Source: Flavobacteriaceae bacterium GF1 (GTDB taxonomy: Bacteria; Bacteroidota; Bacteroidia; Flavobacteriales; Flavobacteriaceae). Taken from it: 64,000 bases of DNA. The stretch covers positions 62,001-126,000 of the forward strand of contig WNKP01000004.1 in assembly GCA_009797885.1 (NCBI GenBank), given 5' to 3'. Each line of letters opens with the position of its first letter. Positions within the stretch are counted from its first letter, which is position 1. Made by a program: the position numbers and the translations under genes. Below are positions 18,380 to 31,693 of the stretch, one piece after another. The notes under the pieces are model-generated. The model searched no databases. It was given only the letters and a program-made list of their open reading frames with translations, and was not told the DNA's origin.

Positions 18380-18402
18380 TAAATGCAACTATGTTGCATT
18401 TA
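18380..18402. promoter_or_regulatory. Zur-like palindromic operator, copy 1
   Basis: Perfect 10-bp arms TAAATGCAAC and GTTGCATTTA around the spacer TAT. The site matches the palindrome at 31138-31160 in 18 of 23 positions. Its outer AAATG and CATTT, 11 bases apart, coincide with those of the 23-bp gamma-proteobacterial Zur consensus as I remember it. The right arm holds the TTG of a predicted -33 element. A CobW/COG0523 remnant, a classic Zur target, begins 92 bases downstream. Recognition by the Fur-family protein at 27862 is inferred. Confidence 0.65.
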
Positions 18403-18493: not shown

Positions 18494-18649
18494 ATGATAA
18501 AAAACAACAAATTGCCGGTAATCATTCTTAGCGGATTGCTAGGGGCGAGAAAAACCACGCTCCTTAACCATGTCCCTGACAACAAAGAGGGTATGATGAT
18601 CAATGGCCCGTGGAACGTGTATATGTTCTGGAATAAACGAAGGTATTAG
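18494..18649 (+). pseudogene. Truncated remnant of a CobW/COG0523 zinc-chaperone GTPase
   Basis: The 51-codon frame starts like COG0523 metallochaperones: KLPVIILSG followed by LLGARKTTLLNH, where intact proteins read G(F/L)[11 protein letters not shown]. The Walker A glycine before Lys is replaced by Arg, and similarity ends after about 35 residues (DNKEGMMI). The remaining 300 or more residues of the family (CxCC motif, NKxD, C-terminal domain) are absent and the frame ends in TAG. It is therefore a relic, not a working GTPase. It still sits 92 bp behind a Zur-like palindrome, and the DinB gene starts 13 bp after its stop. Confidence 0.72.
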
Positions 18650-24556: not shown

Positions 24557-25066
24557 GTGTTAAGATCAGTATTTGTTTTAATTACTTTGGCCGCGTCCAT
24601 GCAAGTGGCCGCCCATCCTCTAAGGCTTTCGTTGTGCGAGATTGAGTATACATCAAGCAAACAATTGCTGACCATTAACCTAAAGCTGTTCTTAACCGAT
24701 GTCAATGAGGCCTTGGTCTTTGATCCCTATAGCAAGGAGCTCGCCTTTTGCCAGCCCAATGAATCCGTTAAGGCCAATCAACTATTGCTGGACTATCTCA
24801 ATCAGTTTTTCTATGTAAAAGCCAATAAAAAGGCTGTAGAATTGCAAATAAAGCGTAAGAAACTGAGCGGCGAAGGTGAGAATACCGCCTTATGGGTCTA
24901 CTTCGAATATCAACAACCAGCGCCCTTGACCTCCCTGGAAATCAAAAATGCCGTTTTCACCGACCTGTTCTTTGATCAAAACAACATTGTCTATGTCCAT
25001 GTCAACGGAAAATCCAATAGTTTGATGCTCAATAAAAAAACAGCTGTTCACCAACTGAAATTCTAA
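24557..25066 (+). CDS. DUF6702-family exported protein
   Basis: 169-residue secreted protein. It starts with GTG at 24557, gives a signal peptide ending VAAHP, and begins the mature part HPLRLSLCEIEY, as in the DUF6702 family of Bacteroidota. Mostly beta-strand, no catalytic motif seen. The HupE-like gene begins 1 base after its stop, so they are translated together. The fixed pairing suggests that it is a periplasmic helper of the HupE-like membrane protein, perhaps in metal handling; the function is unknown. Confidence 0.78.
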   Translation: MLRSVFVLITLAASMQVAAHPLRLSLCEIEYTSSKQLLTINLKLFLTDVNEALVFDPYSKELAFCQPNESVKANQLLLDYLNQFFYVKANKKAVELQIKRKKLSGEGENTALWVYFEYQQPAPLTSLEIKNAVFTDLFFDQNNIVYVHVNGKSNSLMLNKKTAVHQLKF

Positions 25067-25067
25067 G

Positions 25068-25652
25068 ATGCATCCATTCGAGTTTTATCTTAAACTTGGT
25101 TTTGACCATATTGCCGATATGGCCGCTTATGACCATATTCTTTTCTTGGTAGTGCTTTGTGCAGTTTATCGAATCGAACAATGGAAGAAGATTTTAATTT
25201 TGGTGACAGCCTTTACCATTGGCCACAGTATCACTTTGGTCCTAGTGTCCCTGGACATTTTCTCAATTCCTTCAAATTTGATAAAATTCCTTATCCCGGC
25301 TACCATATTTATTACGGCCCTTCACAATGTCATTGGTCCAAATACCACCGAAAAATCTTCAAGAATGAATCAAAACTACGGCATGGCCTTGTTCTTTGGA
25401 TTGATTCATGGCATGGACTTTTCCAATTACTTCAAGGCCCTGATCATGGACCCTTCCGATATTGTCATACCCCTCTTGGGCTTTAATATTGGCATAGAGC
25501 TTGGTCAATTGTTGGTTGTGTTTTTTATCGTTGGTGGTGCCTTTCTTTTCCTCAATGTCATGAAGGTCAAGCACCGCGAATGGAATGTGTTCATTTCGGG
25601 CGCGGCCGCGGGAATGTCCCTGATTTCCATGTTGGAGAATACGTTCTGGTAA
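25068..25652 (+). CDS. HupE/UreJ-family membrane protein
   Basis: 194-residue integral membrane protein with five or six helices. Family features are the histidine-containing segments FDHIADMAAYDHILF, TIGHSI, ALHN and LIHGMDFS. HupE/UreJ proteins are thought to be nickel or cobalt permeases beside hydrogenase and urease genes. Here there is no such enzyme nearby, so the metal, if any, is open. Coupled to the DUF6702 gene at its 5' end. Confidence 0.83.
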   Translation: MHPFEFYLKLGFDHIADMAAYDHILFLVVLCAVYRIEQWKKILILVTAFTIGHSITLVLVSLDIFSIPSNLIKFLIPATIFITALHNVIGPNTTEKSSRMNQNYGMALFFGLIHGMDFSNYFKALIMDPSDIVIPLLGFNIGIELGQLLVVFFIVGGAFLFLNVMKVKHREWNVFISGAAAGMSLISMLENTFW

Positions 25653-25971: not shown

Positions 25972-27837
25972 TCACCTTAGTGTTATTTCATCAATAAGGT
26001 TCAAGGTGTCGGGATTGATTACCCTCATTTTTACGGTGGGTCCATTCACATAAAATAGGCACACCGCGTTCTCCACACTAAAAGCTTTGGTATGTTCGCT
26101 CCAAGGCAGTACCTCCTGGGCATAATAGGGCGCTCCGGCGGCGCCGTTATTAATTTGATAAATGGGCCTGGACACATTCAGTTTTTTATGGGGATAATCC
26201 TCAGGATAGATGGTGACTTCCTTTGTCAACTTCAAGCGATTGTAATTATGCTCGTCCCCGGTCAAGACGGCCAATACCTTTTTGCTTTTATTGATGAGAA
26301 TGTCCAAATACTGATCCCGCCGTTCCAAAATACCGTTTTCAAGGGCTTTGCCAGCTACGAAAGGGCGTTTTTCATTATTGCCGCTATACCACATATCATC
26401 CCGACTGTGACCTCCGTTAGGGAAAACTGGGGTGTGCTGGGTCACAAAAATATGGTCAATGGTCGGATCTTTCTCCAAAGAAGTTATGGTCCCTTCCAAC
26501 CATTCCAATTGATTGTCCATAATATAGCCATGCAAACCACCGGATGTGGCCGTATTTCTTGAAAGGCTCGGTGCATACCAATAGTCACTGTTCAGTACTA
26601 CAACGGCAACGTTATCATAGCGATAATGAAATACATTTTCAGAATATGACGGAAAATCAACGGTTTGGGAAGATGGGTCATACGTACTCCCATCCTCACT
26701 TTTTAGGGTGGACACGGGATTTACAAAGGCCTGGGCAAACGCCATTTCGGCCGATTCGGTATCAAATGGGAACTTGTCCACAAACCCCCTACTCCTTCCG
26801 GTACTATCCCTAAAAATATGTCCCAGGGCTTCGTGGTTCCCCATCCCCACTTGAAAGGGCATATAATGCCAAAAAGGTTCTACGGCCTTTTTCCAGTTGG
26901 TGTATTGTAATTGGGTCTCGGCGTTTGTTTCCAAGTAGCCATTGATCAGGTCCCCACTGAACTGCATAAATGAAGCATCATTGGCATAGGCCACCGCTGC
27001 AATTTTTTTCATGATATAGGCGTTGGCCCCATAGATTTTTCGTTCTCCCCCTCCCGAGGCATGTCTACTATCACTGGTATACGCAAAAACAAAGGGCTGC
27101 TTACTCCCTGGTCTTGGGGCCGTTTTTAAATGATATTGCTGGGTAAAACCATCATACGTGACCGAATACGTATACTTTGTATCCGGTGCCAGATCGGAAA
27201 CCGATATTTCATGATGTGTCCCTAACGGACTTTCAATTGTTTTTCCATTGATTTGTAAGCTGGCCATCACCGGTAGGGTGGTATTGAACCAAAGGGTCGC
27301 ACTGCTGTCCGTGAGCATATTCACAAAAGGCCCTTCATATATTGAGGAAGCAACGGTGAACGGGCCTTTCCCTTTTAGGGATACCTCACCGTCGTAGACC
27401 ACCATACCGGTTTCATCCGTTAGCCGATAGCCTATGGAGAGCATCTGGTTCTTTTGCCAATCCACAAAATCATACGGATACCTAAAGTCCCTTTCAATAT
27501 TGATGTCCGCCTTCCCCGATTCCAAAGTCTTTACAAACCGAAAGACGGGTAGTGGATGGGGTGCCTTTCCGTAGGGGATCAACCCATAGGTAATGGTCCC
27601 ATTAAAATCCCCAAAATCCAGGGTTACTCCTTCCGTGGTCCCATTGGGATTACCAAAGCATTGCTGAAGTGTGTAGTTCGGTACCGCCTCTTTTGCATAA
27701 TATCGCTGGCCGTTTTCTTGAAGATAGAGCCCGCTTTCATCACTGAAAATATTACTGTAGCTTTTTGGAACTTGCAATTCCTGGGCGGTTAACATAAGGT
27801 GCATCAGCACCAGCAGGGGCAAAACGAGTTTTTTCAT
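25972..27837 (-). CDS. Secreted metallophosphoesterase (purple acid phosphatase-like)
   Basis: 621-residue exported protein with signal peptide ending LTAQ. A beta-rich N-terminal half (to about residue 235) includes a fibronectin-like segment with DLAPDTKYTYSV, as in purple acid phosphatases. The metallophosphatase domain follows, with SDSR, FSGDLIN, GMGNHE, VTQHTPVFP and GDEHNYNR giving the usual Asp/Asn/His metal ligands. It should hydrolyse phosphate esters outside the cytoplasm. It ends in a short C-terminus without a type IX secretion tag. Its 5' end lies 24 bp from the stop of the Fur-family gene, so it may be partly co-transcribed with that operon. Confidence 0.88.
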   Translation of the reverse strand: MKKLVLPLLVLMHLMLTAQELQVPKSYSNIFSDESGLYLQENGQRYYAKEAVPNYTLQQCFGNPNGTTEGVTLDFGDFNGTITYGLIPYGKAPHPLPVFRFVKTLESGKADINIERDFRYPYDFVDWQKNQMLSIGYRLTDETGMVVYDGEVSLKGKGPFTVASSIYEGPFVNMLTDSSATLWFNTTLPVMASLQINGKTIESPLGTHHEISVSDLAPDTKYTYSVTYDGFTQQYHLKTAPRPGSKQPFVFAYTSDSRHASGGGERKIYGANAYIMKKIAAVAYANDASFMQFSGDLINGYLETNAETQLQYTNWKKAVEPFWHYMPFQVGMGNHEALGHIFRDSTGRSRGFVDKFPFDTESAEMAFAQAFVNPVSTLKSEDGSTYDPSSQTVDFPSYSENVFHYRYDNVAVVVLNSDYWYAPSLSRNTATSGGLHGYIMDNQLEWLEGTITSLEKDPTIDHIFVTQHTPVFPNGGHSRDDMWYSGNNEKRPFVAGKALENGILERRDQYLDILINKSKKVLAVLTGDEHNYNRLKLTKEVTIYPEDYPHKKLNVSRPIYQINNGAAGAPYYAQEVLPWSEHTKAFSVENAVCLFYVNGPTVKMRVINPDTLNLIDEITLR

Positions 27838-27861: not shown

Positions 27862-28266
27862 CTAACAATCGGAACAGATTCCTCTGATAATGGTCTGTAT
27901 GGTCTTGGTTTTAAATCCTTTGGGAACATTGATGTCTACTGTTGTCGCTTTTTCCATACAATAGACCGTTTCGCATTGTTCGCAAACAAAATGGGCATGA
28001 TCGCGACCATGGTCGTGGACCTTGCCAAATGCATATTTGGCAACACCACTTTGATCATAAATACGATGAATGATGTCTGCTTCTTCAAAAGCGGCGAGGT
28101 TTCGGTAGAGCGTGGACCTGTCCACCCCTTCTCCCAACATCTGTTTGATATCTGGATAGGATAGTGCATGTTTGGTGTTTAGGAAACAATCCAAAAGTGC
28201 CATCCGCAGTTTTGTCCTTTTTAGTCCTTGTTGCTGCAGAAGGTCATCACCGATCACATATTCCAT
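27862..28266 (-). CDS. Fur-family transcriptional regulator, Zur candidate
   Basis: 134-residue repressor of the Fur superfamily. The winged-helix part has VDRSTLYRNLAAFEEADIIHRI (typical of recognition helix and wing), and the dimerisation part has the His cluster HDHGRDHAHFVCEQC and a final CSDC. CEQC with CSDC forms the structural four-Cys zinc site. It is the last gene of the operon that starts at 31106, whose promoter carries a Zur-like palindrome, so it probably represses its own operon. Family members sense iron, zinc, manganese or peroxide. The His-rich transporter and the COG0523 relic argue for zinc, which is inference. Confidence 0.88.
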   Translation of the reverse strand: MEYVIGDDLLQQQGLKRTKLRMALLDCFLNTKHALSYPDIKQMLGEGVDRSTLYRNLAAFEEADIIHRIYDQSGVAKYAFGKVHDHGRDHAHFVCEQCETVYCMEKATTVDINVPKGFKTKTIQTIIRGICSDC

Positions 28267-28279
28267 TTTGGGTTGCTAT

Positions 28280-28714
28280 TTAGATTCCAAAAGCTTCGGC
28301 TTGTTCAATCAGGTAGTAACAGCGGGTTGGGTCATCCCGATTTAGACGTAGGATTCCCGTTACCGTAATTAAATCATCCATGGAAAACGAGGTTTTTTGG
28401 GCAAATGCAATTTCAGAGATGGTCTCTGGCCCACCATTACCACAGAAAAAACAGCTTGCCATTGGGTTTTTGGAAAGCATATAGACCGATTGATTCCCAT
28501 CCAGCACCAAAAGAAACCCAATCAACGAAACTTCTTTTCCTTCCAAATCCGTGAGTTTGGTTGAAAAGTCCGCTTCCAAAAAACCGGGATATGCTTTTTT
28601 GGTGTCACTTTTTCTCCAAGTGATGCCCCGTTCCAAATCTGACCAGTCCAAAGCGGTTTGGGCCGTCAGTTCCATGGAAAAAACCAGGAGGGACAATAGC
28701 ACTATGGTCTTCAT
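28280..28714 (-). CDS. Exported CFFCG-motif protein, second copy
   Basis: 144-residue secreted protein, signal peptide ending LTAQ. It shares with its upstream neighbour the core NPMASCFFCGxxGPE and the final strand pattern VTGxLxLN. The layout is small, beta-rich and OB-fold-like, and by eye resembles DUF3299-type proteins. The CxxC could bind a metal or undergo redox. The gene lies 1 base after the first copy and 13 bases before the Fur-family gene. Function unknown; a periplasmic metal-binding accessory of the ABC system is likely from context. Confidence 0.8.
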   Translation of the reverse strand: MKTIVLLSLLVFSMELTAQTALDWSDLERGITWRKSDTKKAYPGFLEADFSTKLTDLEGKEVSLIGFLLVLDGNQSVYMLSKNPMASCFFCGNGGPETISEIAFAQKTSFSMDDLITVTGILRLNRDDPTRCYYLIEQAEAFGI

Positions 28715-28715
28715 A

Positions 28716-29159
28716 TCAATTCACCAATTTTCCCGATGCCTCTTTTAAAATATAGTTACAATGATCTACATTATCGCCATTCAATTCCAGGACACCCGTA
28801 ACCTGAACAATCTGGTCCGTCCTAAAGGGCGGCCTTTCCTTAAAAAGGACCTCAACGATACTCTCTGGCCCCGCAGCACCGCAAAAAAAGCAGGAAGCCA
28901 TTGGATTGGCCGAAACTAAAAATACTTCACCTGTTCCGGAAATGTCCAAAAAATACCCGGTAATCTTGACTTTCTTTCCCTGGTAGGTTTTAATCCTTTC
29001 CCCAAATTTAGGCATCAAAAAGTGAACATCGTACTTTTCATTGTACACCGGTTCAAAATTCACATCAGCGAAATCCTGCCAGGTTACTTCCAGCTGCGCA
29101 GAAACGTTTTGAACCATAAGGACAACGGGAAAAAGGAACAAAAAAAATGGTTTATACAT
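28716..29159 (-). CDS. Exported CFFCG-motif protein, first copy
   Basis: 147-residue secreted protein, signal peptide ending NVSAQ. Its core NPMASCFFCGAAGPE is nearly identical to that of the next gene, while the flanks differ, so this is an old tandem duplication. A conserved Cys also lies near the end (DHCNY), aligned with CYY in the second copy. Its start overlaps the permease stop by 8 bases. DUF3299-like by eye. I infer a periplasmic partner of the His-rich permease, perhaps presenting a metal ion; no activity is known. Confidence 0.8.
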   Translation of the reverse strand: MYKPFFLFLFPVVLMVQNVSAQLEVTWQDFADVNFEPVYNEKYDVHFLMPKFGERIKTYQGKKVKITGYFLDISGTGEVFLVSANPMASCFFCGAAGPESIVEVLFKERPPFRTDQIVQVTGVLELNGDNVDHCNYILKEASGKLVN

Positions 29160-30483
29160 CGGCCAACGTTTTTGAAATGTTCAATTTAAAAATCGATGTG
29201 GACGCCAACAAAACAGCAATTATGGCAATGACCAAAGTTACCCCAAAAAGTAACAACTCTGGAAGGTCGGGTCCATTCAATTGCAAAACATATCCATATC
29301 CCGATTCAATATATCCCGACGCCAGGACCAGGGCCAAACGCCCGAATACCCATCCAAGCCAAAATCCTATCAAGGCCAAAAGGAGCCCTTCAAACAATAC
29401 CAGGAAGAGCAATTTTCGCGTTCCCAGGCCATAGGTACGCAACAATGCCAGTTCCTGTCTTCGCTCCCGTATGGTCTTTAATAGACTGATGAAAATACTA
29501 AAACCAGAAACGAATAGAATGGCAAAAGCGATACCGTTTATGGTCTTTACGCCGGAACCCAGAAAACCCATAAGCCGTTGTATCTCAAAACCGGGAAGGG
29601 CGGCCTGCATATTGGTGTTTTCATTGATAAAGCGCGGTAACTGTACCAAGCCCAATGGACTTTTGAATTTTACCAAAAGAGAGGTAATCTCGAGTTCATC
29701 ATCATGGTCTTCAAGGTCCTGTCCGGTGCTGTTAGCTTCATCATGAACCTCTTCTCCACCTTCATGTTCCTTATGATCATGTCCTTCTTGGTCATGGTCA
29801 TGTTCCTCATGGTCATGTTCCCCTTCTTCATGCTTTTCATCTTCTTCATGTTCTTCTCCCCCATGATTTGCGTGCGCATCCCAGACACTTTGCAAATCAC
29901 ATATCAGTAACTGATCGACCACAGTTCCGGAGGGTTCCAAAATGCCAACAATGGTATAGGGATTATCGTCATGGGATTCCCCGCCAGCAGCGGCCAAACC
30001 ATGGGAACTGGTAATCTTATCCCCTATTTGGAGTCCCAATTTTTTGGCAACGGTATTTCCTGCCACTATTTCAAAAGGTCTTTCAAATGGACCTCCTGCG
30101 CTCAAGACAACACCATAGTTATCCAAATAACTGGGTTCGGTACCCAAAATGCGATACCCTTTATAGTTATCCCCATAGGAAACGGATATGGCCGACCCTA
30201 CAAATGGATGATTCTTAATGGACTCAGCTTCCCCCAGTTTAATGTTACCAGTAGGTACATCAATATGCAAAACGGAGGAAAGCACCAACTGCAACGGACT
30301 CCCCTTGGCCCCAACGACCATGTCCACAGGGGCAATGTTCTTGTCCATTTGTCCATTCAGTTGTTTGCCGAGTTGCAGGACAAAAGTGACCAAGGAAACA
30401 CTAAGGACCAAAAGTACCAGGCTCAAAACCATGTTCAAGGGTTTTGAGACCATGTTCCGATAGGCTAAATACAAAAGGTTCAT
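29152..30483 (-). CDS. MacB/LolC-type ABC permease with histidine-rich periplasmic loop
   Basis: 443-residue FtsX-family permease, begun at the Met at 30483 (the frame is open upstream, but this start gives ATGA overlap with the ATPase gene). One helix at about 17-37, a long periplasmic domain, then three C-terminal helices from about 315. Residues 204-260 hold 13 His among many Glu/Asp (blocks such as GEHDHEEHDHD), a likely zinc-binding loop. MacB/Lol-type exporters act mechanically on periplasmic substrates instead of importing ions, so the system may deliver a zinc-binding or lipid-anchored partner. Operon with ATPase, two CFFCG proteins and a Fur-family regulator. Confidence 0.88.
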   Translation of the reverse strand: MNLLYLAYRNMVSKPLNMVLSLVLLVLSVSLVTFVLQLGKQLNGQMDKNIAPVDMVVGAKGSPLQLVLSSVLHIDVPTGNIKLGEAESIKNHPFVGSAISVSYGDNYKGYRILGTEPSYLDNYGVVLSAGGPFERPFEIVAGNTVAKKLGLQIGDKITSSHGLAAAGGESHDDNPYTIVGILEPSGTVVDQLLICDLQSVWDAHANHGGEEHEEDEKHEEGEHDHEEHDHDQEGHDHKEHEGGEEVHDEANSTGQDLEDHDDELEITSLLVKFKSPLGLVQLPRFINENTNMQAALPGFEIQRLMGFLGSGVKTINGIAFAILFVSGFSIFISLLKTIRERRQELALLRTYGLGTRKLLFLVLFEGLLLALIGFWLGWVFGRLALVLASGYIESGYGYVLQLNGPDLPELLLFGVTLVIAIIAVLLASTSIFKLNISKTLADV

Positions 30484-31106
30484 AGCACAATTTGATTTGA
30501 AAAATGTTGGGTAACGCGTTGGTCGTGGGTTATAATGACCAAACTGCTCCCACATAATTCAGCCTCATCCTTTAACAGCTTTATAACCTGATCGCAGTTA
30601 AAATCGTCCAAATTGGATGTGGGTTCATCTGCAAAGACTACCTGAGGTCGATGAATCAACCCCAACGCTATGGACAGCCGTTGTTGCTGTCCTTGACTCA
30701 ATTGCGTTACTTTTTTCTTGAGGTACGGGGTCAAACCCAATCGTTCCGCAATGGCCAACCTTCGCTCCTTATCCATGGTCTTTTTGGGAAAGTTCTGTCG
30801 TAACCTAAGGTTTTCATCAACGTTCAAGGATTTTATGAAATGGTATTGCTGAAAAATGAGTCCAACATACGCGCCACGAAATAAATCCAGACCCTTTCGG
30901 TCCAAAGCAGTAATTTCAGTTTCATTAATGACAATGGAACCACTGGAGGCCGGTAATATTCCCGAAAGCAAATGGAGTAAAGTGGTCTTTCCAACGCCGG
31001 AAGGCCCCAACACCAATAGGTGTTCCTGGCTATTCAAAATAATATCGGGAAACTCAAAGGCCTGTCCCCCCGGGTACTTAAACTGAAGTCCTTCCGTTTT
31101 GACCAT
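30480..31106 (-). CDS. ABC transporter ATPase of the LolD/MacB type
   Basis: ATPase for the His-rich permease. I choose the Met at 31106 (product MVKTEGLQFKYPGG) over one 9 bases upstream because family members start this way and because the predicted promoter leaves no room for the upstream start. Walker A GPSGVGKTT is at about 34-42, the signature LSQGQQQR near 135 and Walker B VVFADEPTSNLD near 157. The length of 208 residues suits LolD-type ATPases. First gene of the five-gene operon running down to the Fur-family regulator. Confidence 0.88.
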   Translation of the reverse strand: MVKTEGLQFKYPGGQAFEFPDIILNSQEHLLVLGPSGVGKTTLLHLLSGILPASSGSIVINETEITALDRKGLDLFRGAYVGLIFQQYHFIKSLNVDENLRLRQNFPKKTMDKERRLAIAERLGLTPYLKKKVTQLSQGQQQRLSIALGLIHRPQVVFADEPTSNLDDFNCDQVIKLLKDEAELCGSSLVIITHDQRVTQHFSNQIVL

Positions 31107-31119
31107 TTCCGTCATCCTA

Positions 31120-31137: not shown

Positions 31138-31160
31138 TAAATGCGACTGAGTTGCGTTTG
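31138..31160. promoter_or_regulatory. Zur-like palindromic operator, copy 2
   Basis: Arms TAAATGCGAC and GTTGCGTTTG around TGA, with 18 of 23 positions identical to copy 1. It lies between the His-rich ABC/Fur operon and the divergent merC gene and covers the -33 region of both predicted promoters, so one bound repressor could silence both sides. The likely repressor is the product of the operon's last gene. Confidence 0.68.
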
Positions 31161-31179
31161 TGATTTTAAGTTATTTTTG
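31152..31179 (+). promoter_or_regulatory. Predicted promoter of the MerC gene
   Basis: TTG at 31152-31154 within the operator, a 17-bp spacer and TATTTTTG at 31172-31179, a full match to TAnnTTTG. The resulting leader of about 85 bases contains nearly all of the 13-bp tandem repeat. Confidence 0.5.
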
Positions 31180-31258
31180 CATTTCATTTTTGCATTTCAT
31201 TTTTGCATTTCATTTTTGCATTTCATTTTTGCATTTCATTTTTGCATTTCATTTTTGC
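31173..31258. repeat. 13-bp tandem repeat (about 6.6 copies) in the merC leader
   Basis: The unit ATTTTTGCATTTC repeats without error: ATTTTTGC recurs at 31173, 31186, 31199, 31212, 31225, 31238 and 31251. Each full unit contains TTGCATTT, the right half of the operator just upstream. It may be a copy-number-variable leader, or an array of half operators. Confidence 0.9.
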
Positions 31259-31273
31259 AAGTCATAAAACCAT

Positions 31274-31693
31274 ATGAATACCCTTCAATTGACATCAAAA
31301 TCCGATATCGTTGGCGCCCTGGCCAGTGCCCTGTGTTTGGTACATTGTGTGGCCACTCCCTTTTTGTTTGTGGCCCAAGCAGGAATAGCAGGGGCTGGAG
31401 AATCGCATCCGCAATGGTGGGGCATACTTGATTTGGTCTTTTTGATCATTTCCTTTTTTGCCATTTGGTGGTCTGCCAAAACCACTTCCAAAAAATGGAT
31501 GCGCAATCTACTTTGGGGTAGTTGGGGACTTTTGGCGATTATTGTTTTAAATGAGAAAATCCACCTATTTCCCTTAGCCGAACAGGCCATCTATTTTCCA
31601 TCCATTGCCCTTGTCTTCTTTCATCTGTACAATAGGAAGTACTGTAACTGTGGATACGAACAGTGCTCTACCGAAGAAAAGCTGAATGCCTAA
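31274..31693 (+). CDS. MerC-domain membrane protein
   Basis: 139-residue membrane protein with four helices. It has the first-helix motif ALCLVHCVATP, with the Cys pair typical of MerC, and a Cys-rich end, KYCNCGYEQCS. MerC was described as a mercury carrier, but homologues in Bacteroidota without mercury genes are thought to handle other thiophilic metals. Its divergence from a His-rich ABC/Fur operon across a shared Zur-like palindrome makes zinc the best guess. No mercury resistance gene is near. Confidence 0.83.
   Translation: MNTLQLTSKSDIVGALASALCLVHCVATPFLFVAQAGIAGAGESHPQWWGILDLVFLIISFFAIWWSAKTTSKKWMRNLLWGSWGLLAIIVLNEKIHLFPLAEQAIYFPSIALVFFHLYNRKYCNCGYEQCSTEEKLNA

Follow-up and report, generated by a model that had tools for sequence, protein, structure and literature searches.

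The zrg operons are Zur-controlled zinc-starvation systems, and zinc-starvation phenotypes have been reported for zrgABCDE of Vibrio and for PA4063–PA4066 of Pseudomonas aeruginosa (PMC9820375, PMC9817125, PMC11481552). In zinc-starved Vibrio cholerae lacking znuA, zrgA is reported to be needed, and zrg has been termed a zinc import system (PMC9820375); in Vibrio parahaemolyticus the zrg genes are reported to rise 76- to 206-fold without zinc (PMC9817125). Published readings of these systems conflict, with zinc import on one side and pyochelin-cobalt export, proposed for the Pseudomonas genes (PMC11481552), on the other, and the Zrg kind can be called described but poorly understood. An operon of this kind lies in a 64,000-nucleotide stretch of the marine Flavobacteriaceae bacterium GF1 (contig WNKP01000004.1, positions 62,001 to 126,000; hereafter, the window). 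A first-pass annotation of the letters alone had proposed a zinc-linked ATP-binding cassette (ABC) operon there and knew of no functional description of the gene set, a statement that does not hold, given the published phenotypes of the Vibrio and Pseudomonas relatives. With a probability of roughly 0.55, we read the operon as a Bacteroidota branch of the Zrg zinc-starvation systems, engaged in ATP-driven zinc handling at the periplasmic face, with exported phosphatases as possible clients.

The operon is a minus-strand run of five genes encoding an ATPase, a His-rich permease, two small exported proteins that both carry a CFFCG motif, and a Fur-family regulator. The genes had been described as tightly spaced or overlapping, and in operon order they are separated by a 4-bp overlap, an 8-bp overlap, a 1-bp gap and a 13-bp gap. 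The two CFFCG proteins and the Fur assignment of the first-pass annotation were likewise recovered. These genes and their surroundings are as follows.

30480..31115, minus strand: ABC ATPase of the FtsE/LolD/MacB type, ZrgC-like (Pfam ABC_tran, 7e-27)
29152..30483, minus strand: FtsX/MacB-type permease, ZrgB-like, 443 amino acids (Pfam FtsX, 4.7e-12; MacB_PCD, 9e-11)
29872..30003, minus strand: span holding permease residues H161, H171, D190 and H204, a candidate metal site (by invariance)
29704..29874, minus strand: permease loop rich in His (13 in residues 204-260), predicted to be disordered (count and structure model)
28716..29159, minus strand: CFFCG protein 1, with a signal peptide (by eye) and a predicted OB-fold domain, probably DUF3299-related (structure model, Foldseek, hhalign)
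28280..28714, minus strand: CFFCG protein 2, a paralogue of CFFCG protein 1 at 32-34% identity (alignment)
27862..28266, minus strand: Fur-family regulator with two CxxC pairs, candidate Zur (Pfam FUR, 8e-14; aligned with MerC-adjacent Fur proteins)
25972..27837, minus strand: probable exported metallophosphatase, possible sixth operon gene (24 bp past the Fur gene; sub-cut-off Pfam matches; GNHE motif)
31140..31158, no strand: 19-bp palindrome AATGCGACTGAGTTGCGTT, candidate Zur box; the ATPase start is 25 bp away and the MerC start 116 bp
31274..31693, plus strand: MerC-family membrane protein, divergent, with the box in common with the operon (Pfam MerC, 1.8e-19)

The ATPase frame has its first ATG at 31115, with a further in-frame ATG three codons downstream at 31106. 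The permease start was taken as MNLLYL at 30483; the mechanical open reading frame opens earlier, at 30555. Since the metallophosphatase-like gene follows the Fur gene so closely on the same strand, the transcription unit may extend to six genes.

The Bacteroidota system shares with zrgABCDE of V. cholerae and V. parahaemolyticus a MacB-like permease, a separate ATPase and a small exported protein that appears related to the periplasmic DUF3299 protein ZrgE, and it has candidate equivalents of Zur control and of the zinc-starvation role (PMC9820375, PMC9817125). It differs in that the His-rich stretch of the sampled Bacteroidota lies inside the permease, whereas Vibrio has ZrgA (PF10986) and ZrgD, in the CxxC of the DUF3299-like protein, and in its phosphatase, MerC and COG0523 neighbors. 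With PA4063–PA4066 it has in common an ATPase, a MacB-type permease, an OB-fold protein (PA4066 is reported to resemble an OB fold; PMC8561739), a His-rich part, metal-binding in Pseudomonas, and a Zur box, the last so far a candidate in Bacteroidota; in Pseudomonas the His-rich protein is separate and the proposed substrate is pyochelin-cobalt (PMC11481552, PMC8561739). The plasmid relative L130 has 2 His in the loop stretch of its permease.

A profile of 48 Bacteroidota permeases gave 230-237 bits on four zrg-type permeases, 192 on a Deinococcus permease and 141 on one from Paracoccus, and at most 29.4 bits on 24 distinct MacB-type permeases of the GF1 genome itself (the control set: 25 rows, 24 of them distinct, with 5 of 30 left out because the match lay on the other strand). 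In a tree of 27 rows (12 Bacteroidota, 6 from outside the phylum, 9 controls) the family forms one clade with 100/99 support, the program warning of long branches among the control rows. The window permease belongs to the ZrgB clade. A tblastn search of plasmids with the permease returned 111 records, and among the five examined three are zrg-type operons (Phaeobacter inhibens, a P. aeruginosa plasmid and strain SC52) and two, from Deinococcus and Paracoccus, are not. The gene order in P. inhibens is Fur-DUF2796(ZrgA)-ATPase-permease-DUF3299, and strain SC52 has two tandem DUF3299 genes; a search with DUF3299 added Alisedimentitalea (L135), with ATPase-permease-DUF3299 and no ZrgA.

A scan of GTDB genomes with the permease gave 115 relatives, mostly from genera of the Flavobacteriaceae, of which 80 were analyzed, making 81 loci with the window; these 80 were fetched by six peptide patterns, two of which fall in the His loop. 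The closest permease among them, at 86%, is that of a Croceivirga metagenome-assembled genome (L048). Gene order, which the first-pass annotation had suggested comparing across Bacteroidota, is conserved: the ATPase lies immediately upstream of the permease in 79 of the 81 loci, and every locus but L086 (80 of 81) has a CFFCG-family frame after the permease. By simple gene calls there is one CFFCG gene in 59 loci, two in 18 and none in 4 (six CFFCG frames are without a usable Met), and a Fur gene stands within the operon in 19 of 81. The gene preceding the ATPase is COG0523 in 26 loci and a divergent MerC in 25, cluster names here resting on one or two Pfam-scanned members per cluster; a GTP cyclohydrolase I gene follows MerC in 28 of 38 cases, but not in the window. 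Among 395 sampled Bacteroidota genomes, 62 match the CFFCG profile, and 13 of 58 loci found through CFFCG have no permease in the flank examined, so that CFFCG genes may also stand apart from the system. In two relatives (L105, 1645-5375, and L080, 8282-12100) the operon has a TonB receptor and two DUF4625 genes next to it, and the first DUF4625 of L080 is His-rich.

In the structure model of the permease (predicted local distance difference test, pLDDT, 86.4) there are four long helices, with one large periplasmic domain inserted between helices 1 and 2; residues 210-256 are disordered (pLDDT under 50). By Foldseek, LolE and MacB are the solved structures closest to it, and a heme exporter is another of the matches, in keeping with the first-pass suggestion of a MacB/Lol-type transporter working on periplasmic substrates. 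The system thus has the fold and the likely mechanics of MacB, LolCDE and HrtBA (type VII ABC transporters, mechanotransmission), and differs from them in its presumed substrate and in its conserved residues. H161, H171, D190 and H204, and also D105, are invariant in all 80 relatives and in all six permeases from outside Bacteroidota. None of the 24 distinct MacB-type permeases of the same genome has a His at 161, 171 or 204, and one has D190, the controls being gapped at 161 in 22, at 171 in 5 and at 204 in 17 of the 24. The His loop starts at H204, and the other three residues precede it. The loop varies from 1 to 46 His, whereas none of the four residues at its base or ahead of it varies, and for this reason the loop is not the best candidate for the metal site; H161, H171, D190 and H204 are, judging from their conservation, a candidate site. 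Two familiar types were considered and rejected for the window operon. A ZnuABC/cluster A-I importer is at odds with the FtsX fold of four long helices, and there is no binding protein among the operon genes; a plain MacAB-TolC pump is at odds with the separate ATPase gene and with the adjacent MerC and phosphatase-like genes, no adaptor being found beside the operon (elsewhere none was sought). As a separate observation on MacB-type permeases, contig C11 of the same genome (G000) holds a row of such genes, well above ten, of about 800 amino acids each within 50 kb (573-623 kb).

The 13 His counted in the first-pass annotation at residues 204-260 are present, and a chance origin was rejected, as no 57-residue window reached 13 in 10,000 composition shuffles. 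The loop stretch has at least 5 His in 71 of the 80 loci. Because two of the fetching patterns lie in the loop, the tally was repeated on 20 permeases found through CFFCG, of which 12 have at least 5 His, 6 have 3-4 and 2 have 1-2; this set, from the phylum sample, includes the window, repeats some species of the 80 loci, and was counted by script for 17 permeases and by eye for 3. The His-rich loop is thus present in most orthologues in both sets. ZrgA (PF10986) was over the cut-off in none of the 395 Bacteroidota genomes, with four weak partial matches below it and no match in the GF1 genome; the same search recovered ZrgA from each of the three plasmid records with the gene, and none from that of Alisedimentitalea. 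The three permeases with an adjacent ZrgA gene have 1-2 His in the loop stretch. The alphaproteobacterial Alisedimentitalea, with no ZrgA on its record, has a permease loop of 16 His, and Paracoccus, also with no ZrgA on its record, has 14 His in the stretch. From these sequences the His-rich part seems to change place, being either a separate ZrgA or a loop within the permease, in a comparison that outside Bacteroidota covers six loci and plasmid records, not whole genomes.

Neither CFFCG protein matched a family on its own in a Pfam search of the window proteins. When the CFFCG profile was compared with DUF3299 by hhalign, the probability was 96.9, or 94.9 with signal peptides removed, against at most 0.3 for eight shuffled controls and one reversed control. 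Single members match weakly: 6 of 42 match PF11736 (DUF3299), best 0.0015, and 8 of 42 match DUF1980_C about as weakly, best 0.0039. The model of CFFCG protein 1 (pLDDT 90.7) recovers OB folds by Foldseek, with CcmE (8ce8_E) a weak match; the PA4066 structure 4HSP is not among the 50 matches listed. A phmmer search with CFFCG protein 1 and a CFFCG profile search of PDB sequences gave no credible relative, so that the evidence for a link to DUF3299 comes from profile comparison and fold. A PF11736 search of the GF1 genome gave no match, and its control was also unmatched, so this result was not used alone. We consider the CFFCG proteins probably related to DUF3299 (ZrgE/PA4066). Both signal peptides appear by eye to be ordinary ones, not of the lipoprotein type. 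A looser parallel is CcmABCDE, in which an ABC complex likewise goes with a periplasmic OB-fold chaperone for a cofactor (CcmE); there the cofactor is heme, not zinc, and the likeness is a weak fold match, not one of sequence.

The first-pass proposal of a zinc link is supported, not proven, by a palindromic box common to COG0523, MerC, Fur and TonB-receptor genes. Of 79 loci, 31 have the palindrome AATGCAACTnAGTTGCATT ahead of the ATPase with at least 15 of its 19 positions matching, where about 0.15 are expected by shuffling. The loci together (1.02 Mb) contain 66 strong boxes (score at least 18), distributed over 55 of the 81, compared with 0.2 in shuffled sequence; these counts are partly circular, as the matrix was built partly from the same loci, and the comparison is with single-base shuffles. 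Of the 66, 57 lie at most 500 bp upstream of the operon or of one of a set of listed genes that takes in MerC, Fur, FolE and COG0523 and, among a few others, PhoX, HMA, DUF6702 and a small unnamed cluster. In the GF1 genome five sites have at most 2 mismatches. One is at the window operon and another at window 18382-18400. Contig C54 has two, with a Fur gene on one side and a MerC-DUF1826-cobW(COG0523) group on the other. The fifth, on contig C22, precedes a TonB-dependent receptor gene by about 550 bp and is some 190 bp away from a small His-rich gene that by eye is lipoprotein-like. Only these sites were used, as at up to 3 mismatches the pattern gave 12 and 10 matches and the reversed control 6 and 6. 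COG0523 and TonB receptors are usual Zur targets, and the box was named a candidate Zur box on account of its place near such genes. The analysis so supplies a candidate Zur box for Flavobacteriia.

Several smaller observations concern these boxes. The one at window 18382-18400, AATGCAACTATGTTGCATT, is strong and stands before a short, degenerate frame at 18494-18649 that by eye is COG0523-like, apparently what is left of a zinc-chaperone gene whose control site has survived. The C22 box is flanked (L124, 3984-4442 and 5199-7595) by the small His-rich gene and the TonB-dependent receptor, and a third CxxC-type Fur paralogue lies about 3 kb from it. Between the operon box and the MerC start (window 31173-31259) is a perfect 13-bp tandem repeat, ATTTTTGCATTTC, in 6.7 copies, whose units look like half a box; the nearest relative, L048, has about one unit there. 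In L059 and L066 a box is followed by an HMA-like gene, DUF6702 and HupE (names by cluster or by eye).

The next same-strand gene after the operon is phosphatase-like in 28 of the 81 loci. PhoA-type genes account for 13 of these, metallophosphatase-like genes for 8, among them that of the window, and split 5'-nucleotidase genes for 7. In the window the gene has Metallophos and purple-acid-phosphatase matches that are all below Pfam cut-offs, and a GNHE motif. Among 1,082 called genes, the share standing in this slot is 13 of 13 for PhoA, 8 of 9 for the metallophosphatase-like genes and 7 of 7 for the nucleotidase, with a Fisher p of 6e-33 that is overstated, as related genomes are not independent. 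None of the 11 PhoX genes in the loci is same-strand in this slot. As the nucleotidase and the metallophosphatase are both related to PF00149 and share the metallophosphoesterase fold, the slot holds three gene families of two folds. Outside the phylum, Paracoccus (pPAN2 of P. pantotrophus) and Deinococcus (pMP1 of D. radiodurans) have the order PhoA - CPFC protein - ATPase - permease, with PhoA about 70 bp from the next gene in Paracoccus and about 420 bp in Deinococcus. The CPFC protein of Paracoccus reaches 98.1 against the CFFCG profile (hhalign), and that of Deinococcus resembles it by eye. These clusters share with the Bacteroidota system the permease clade, a CFFCG-related CxxC protein and an alkaline phosphatase; they differ in their reversed gene order and, on their records, no DUF3299 is annotated and no ZrgA was found. 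We know of no function described for them. PhoA accompanies this transporter in three phyla, with gene orders that differ, which suggests that the phosphatases are functionally tied to it. Among the matches listed in open-licence full text there was nothing on a Bacteroidota branch or a phosphatase link. What is new here is the absence of ZrgA over the cut-off in Bacteroidota together with the permease loop, the invariant residues and the phosphatase neighbors.

From what was computed directly (the gene set and its anatomy, the permease family, the box, the conserved residues and the phosphatase neighbors) we infer zinc as the metal, Zur control, the direction of movement, ATP-driven hand-over, the role of the CFFCG proteins and the clients. 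When zinc is low, a Zur-type Fur protein would leave the palindromic box, switching on the operon and the divergent MerC gene. The ATPase would power the LolE/MacB-type permease, whose periplasmic domain bears H161, H171, D190 and H204, and in most members the flexible His-rich loop could collect Zn2+, replacing the separate ZrgA of Proteobacteria. ATP-driven movement of the domain may then hand on or free zinc to users on the periplasmic side, probably via the exported OB-fold CFFCG (DUF3299-like) proteins, and the best candidates for such users would be the exported phosphatases encoded beside the operon. The loading, release or sensing of zinc suggested in the first-pass annotation would agree with the data, and its placing at the periplasmic face is plausible. 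In the members compared, the ATPase, the permease with its four invariant His/Asp residues and a small exported protein are constant, ZrgA or the permease loop is seemingly exchangeable, and both the Bacteroidota and the Deinococcus/Paracoccus branches point to exported phosphatases as partners; the system thus suggests a testable job for the whole Zrg family. A tentative extension, which we think rather doubtful as it stands, is that the Zrg superfamily is an ATP-driven periplasmic metallation machine, neither importer nor drug-type exporter, that supplies zinc to exported zinc enzymes during zinc starvation, chiefly to phosphatases (PhoA, 5'-nucleotidase and purple-acid types); the His loop or ZrgA would collect the zinc and the CFFCG/DUF3299 OB proteins would pass it on.

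A number of results weigh against periplasmic zinc handling of this kind. The His loop of ZrgA is reported to be dispensable in V. cholerae, and a zrgE knock-out alone is reported to have no growth effect (PMC9820375). Deletion of PA4065 in a zinc-uptake mutant is reported to lead to accumulation of pyochelin and cobalt, pyochelin-cobalt export being the reading favored there, with no relevant difference in Zn reported by inductively coupled plasma mass spectrometry, and PA4066 is described as having no evident Zn-binding ability (PMC11481552). Within our own data, 48 of 79 loci are without a good box directly upstream of the ATPase, 26 of 81 are without a box scoring at least 18 in the flank examined, and another Fur-family protein could read the box. 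In Deinococcus the loop stretch has a single His and the record shows no ZrgA, and among the 80 Bacteroidota loci 4 have at most 2 His there, so that the exchange of ZrgA for the loop is not strict. No recognized phosphatase is in the slot in 53 of 81 loci, 3 of which have no gene there at all.

The Pseudomonas results bear most directly on the choice between readings. Export of a metal-chelating small molecule, or of its complex with the metal, was put forward for PA4064-PA4065 (pyochelin-cobalt). For the window system this reading, in which the His loop and CFFCG proteins would tune metal release, is a serious rival, and although we do not expect it to prove correct, it is a possibility of real weight. 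It draws on genetic and biosensor data for PA4065 (PMC11481552), and both the fold (nearest to LolE and MacB) and the heme exporter among the Foldseek matches agree with it, as does, in the ZrgA-less Alisedimentitalea, a gene for a biotin/lipoyl-binding, HlyD/MacA-like protein about 230 bp upstream of the ATPase. This gene (L135, 1-802) would fit a tripartite exporter in that organism. The window has no adaptor or TolC gene among the immediate neighbors of its operon (a metallophore cluster was not searched for), and chelator export leaves both the phosphatase neighbors and the pattern of ZrgA and His loop unexplained. Direct import, with the permease passing Zn2+ into the cytoplasm and the loop serving as a built-in substrate-binding part, agrees with the description of V. 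cholerae zrg as zinc import; zrgA is needed there in the znuA mutant, and Pfam calls DUF2796 the 'ZrgA family zinc uptake protein'. The lack of a relevant Zn difference reported for the PA4065 deletion speaks against it, as does the predicted four-helix MacB/LolE-type fold of the window permease, and we judge import unlikely. To our knowledge, four-helix mechanotransmission transporters of this type have no known solute path into the cytoplasm.

The top Foldseek match of the permease model, chain E of the LolCDE-Lpp complex, would also suit a LolCDE-like machine that frees a zinc-related lipoprotein from the inner membrane, for which the small lipoprotein-like gene near the C22 box and the DUF4625 genes near the operon in relatives might be cited. 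A good match between the profile and Lol proteins is confined to the C-terminal FtsX part, the window permease scores 47 bits against NCBIfam TIGR02212 (LolCE), whose cut-off of 362 rules out a LolCDE equivalog, and the CFFCG signal peptides are, as noted, of the ordinary kind; lipoprotein release seems the most improbable of these alternatives. Periplasmic hand-over of zinc fits the fold better than import does and would explain the phosphatases, and it is the reading we prefer.

On the far side of the metallophosphatase-like gene, DUF6702 and HupE/UreJ_2 genes (window 24557-25652) converge on the operon, and the HupE cluster was found in 19 loci.

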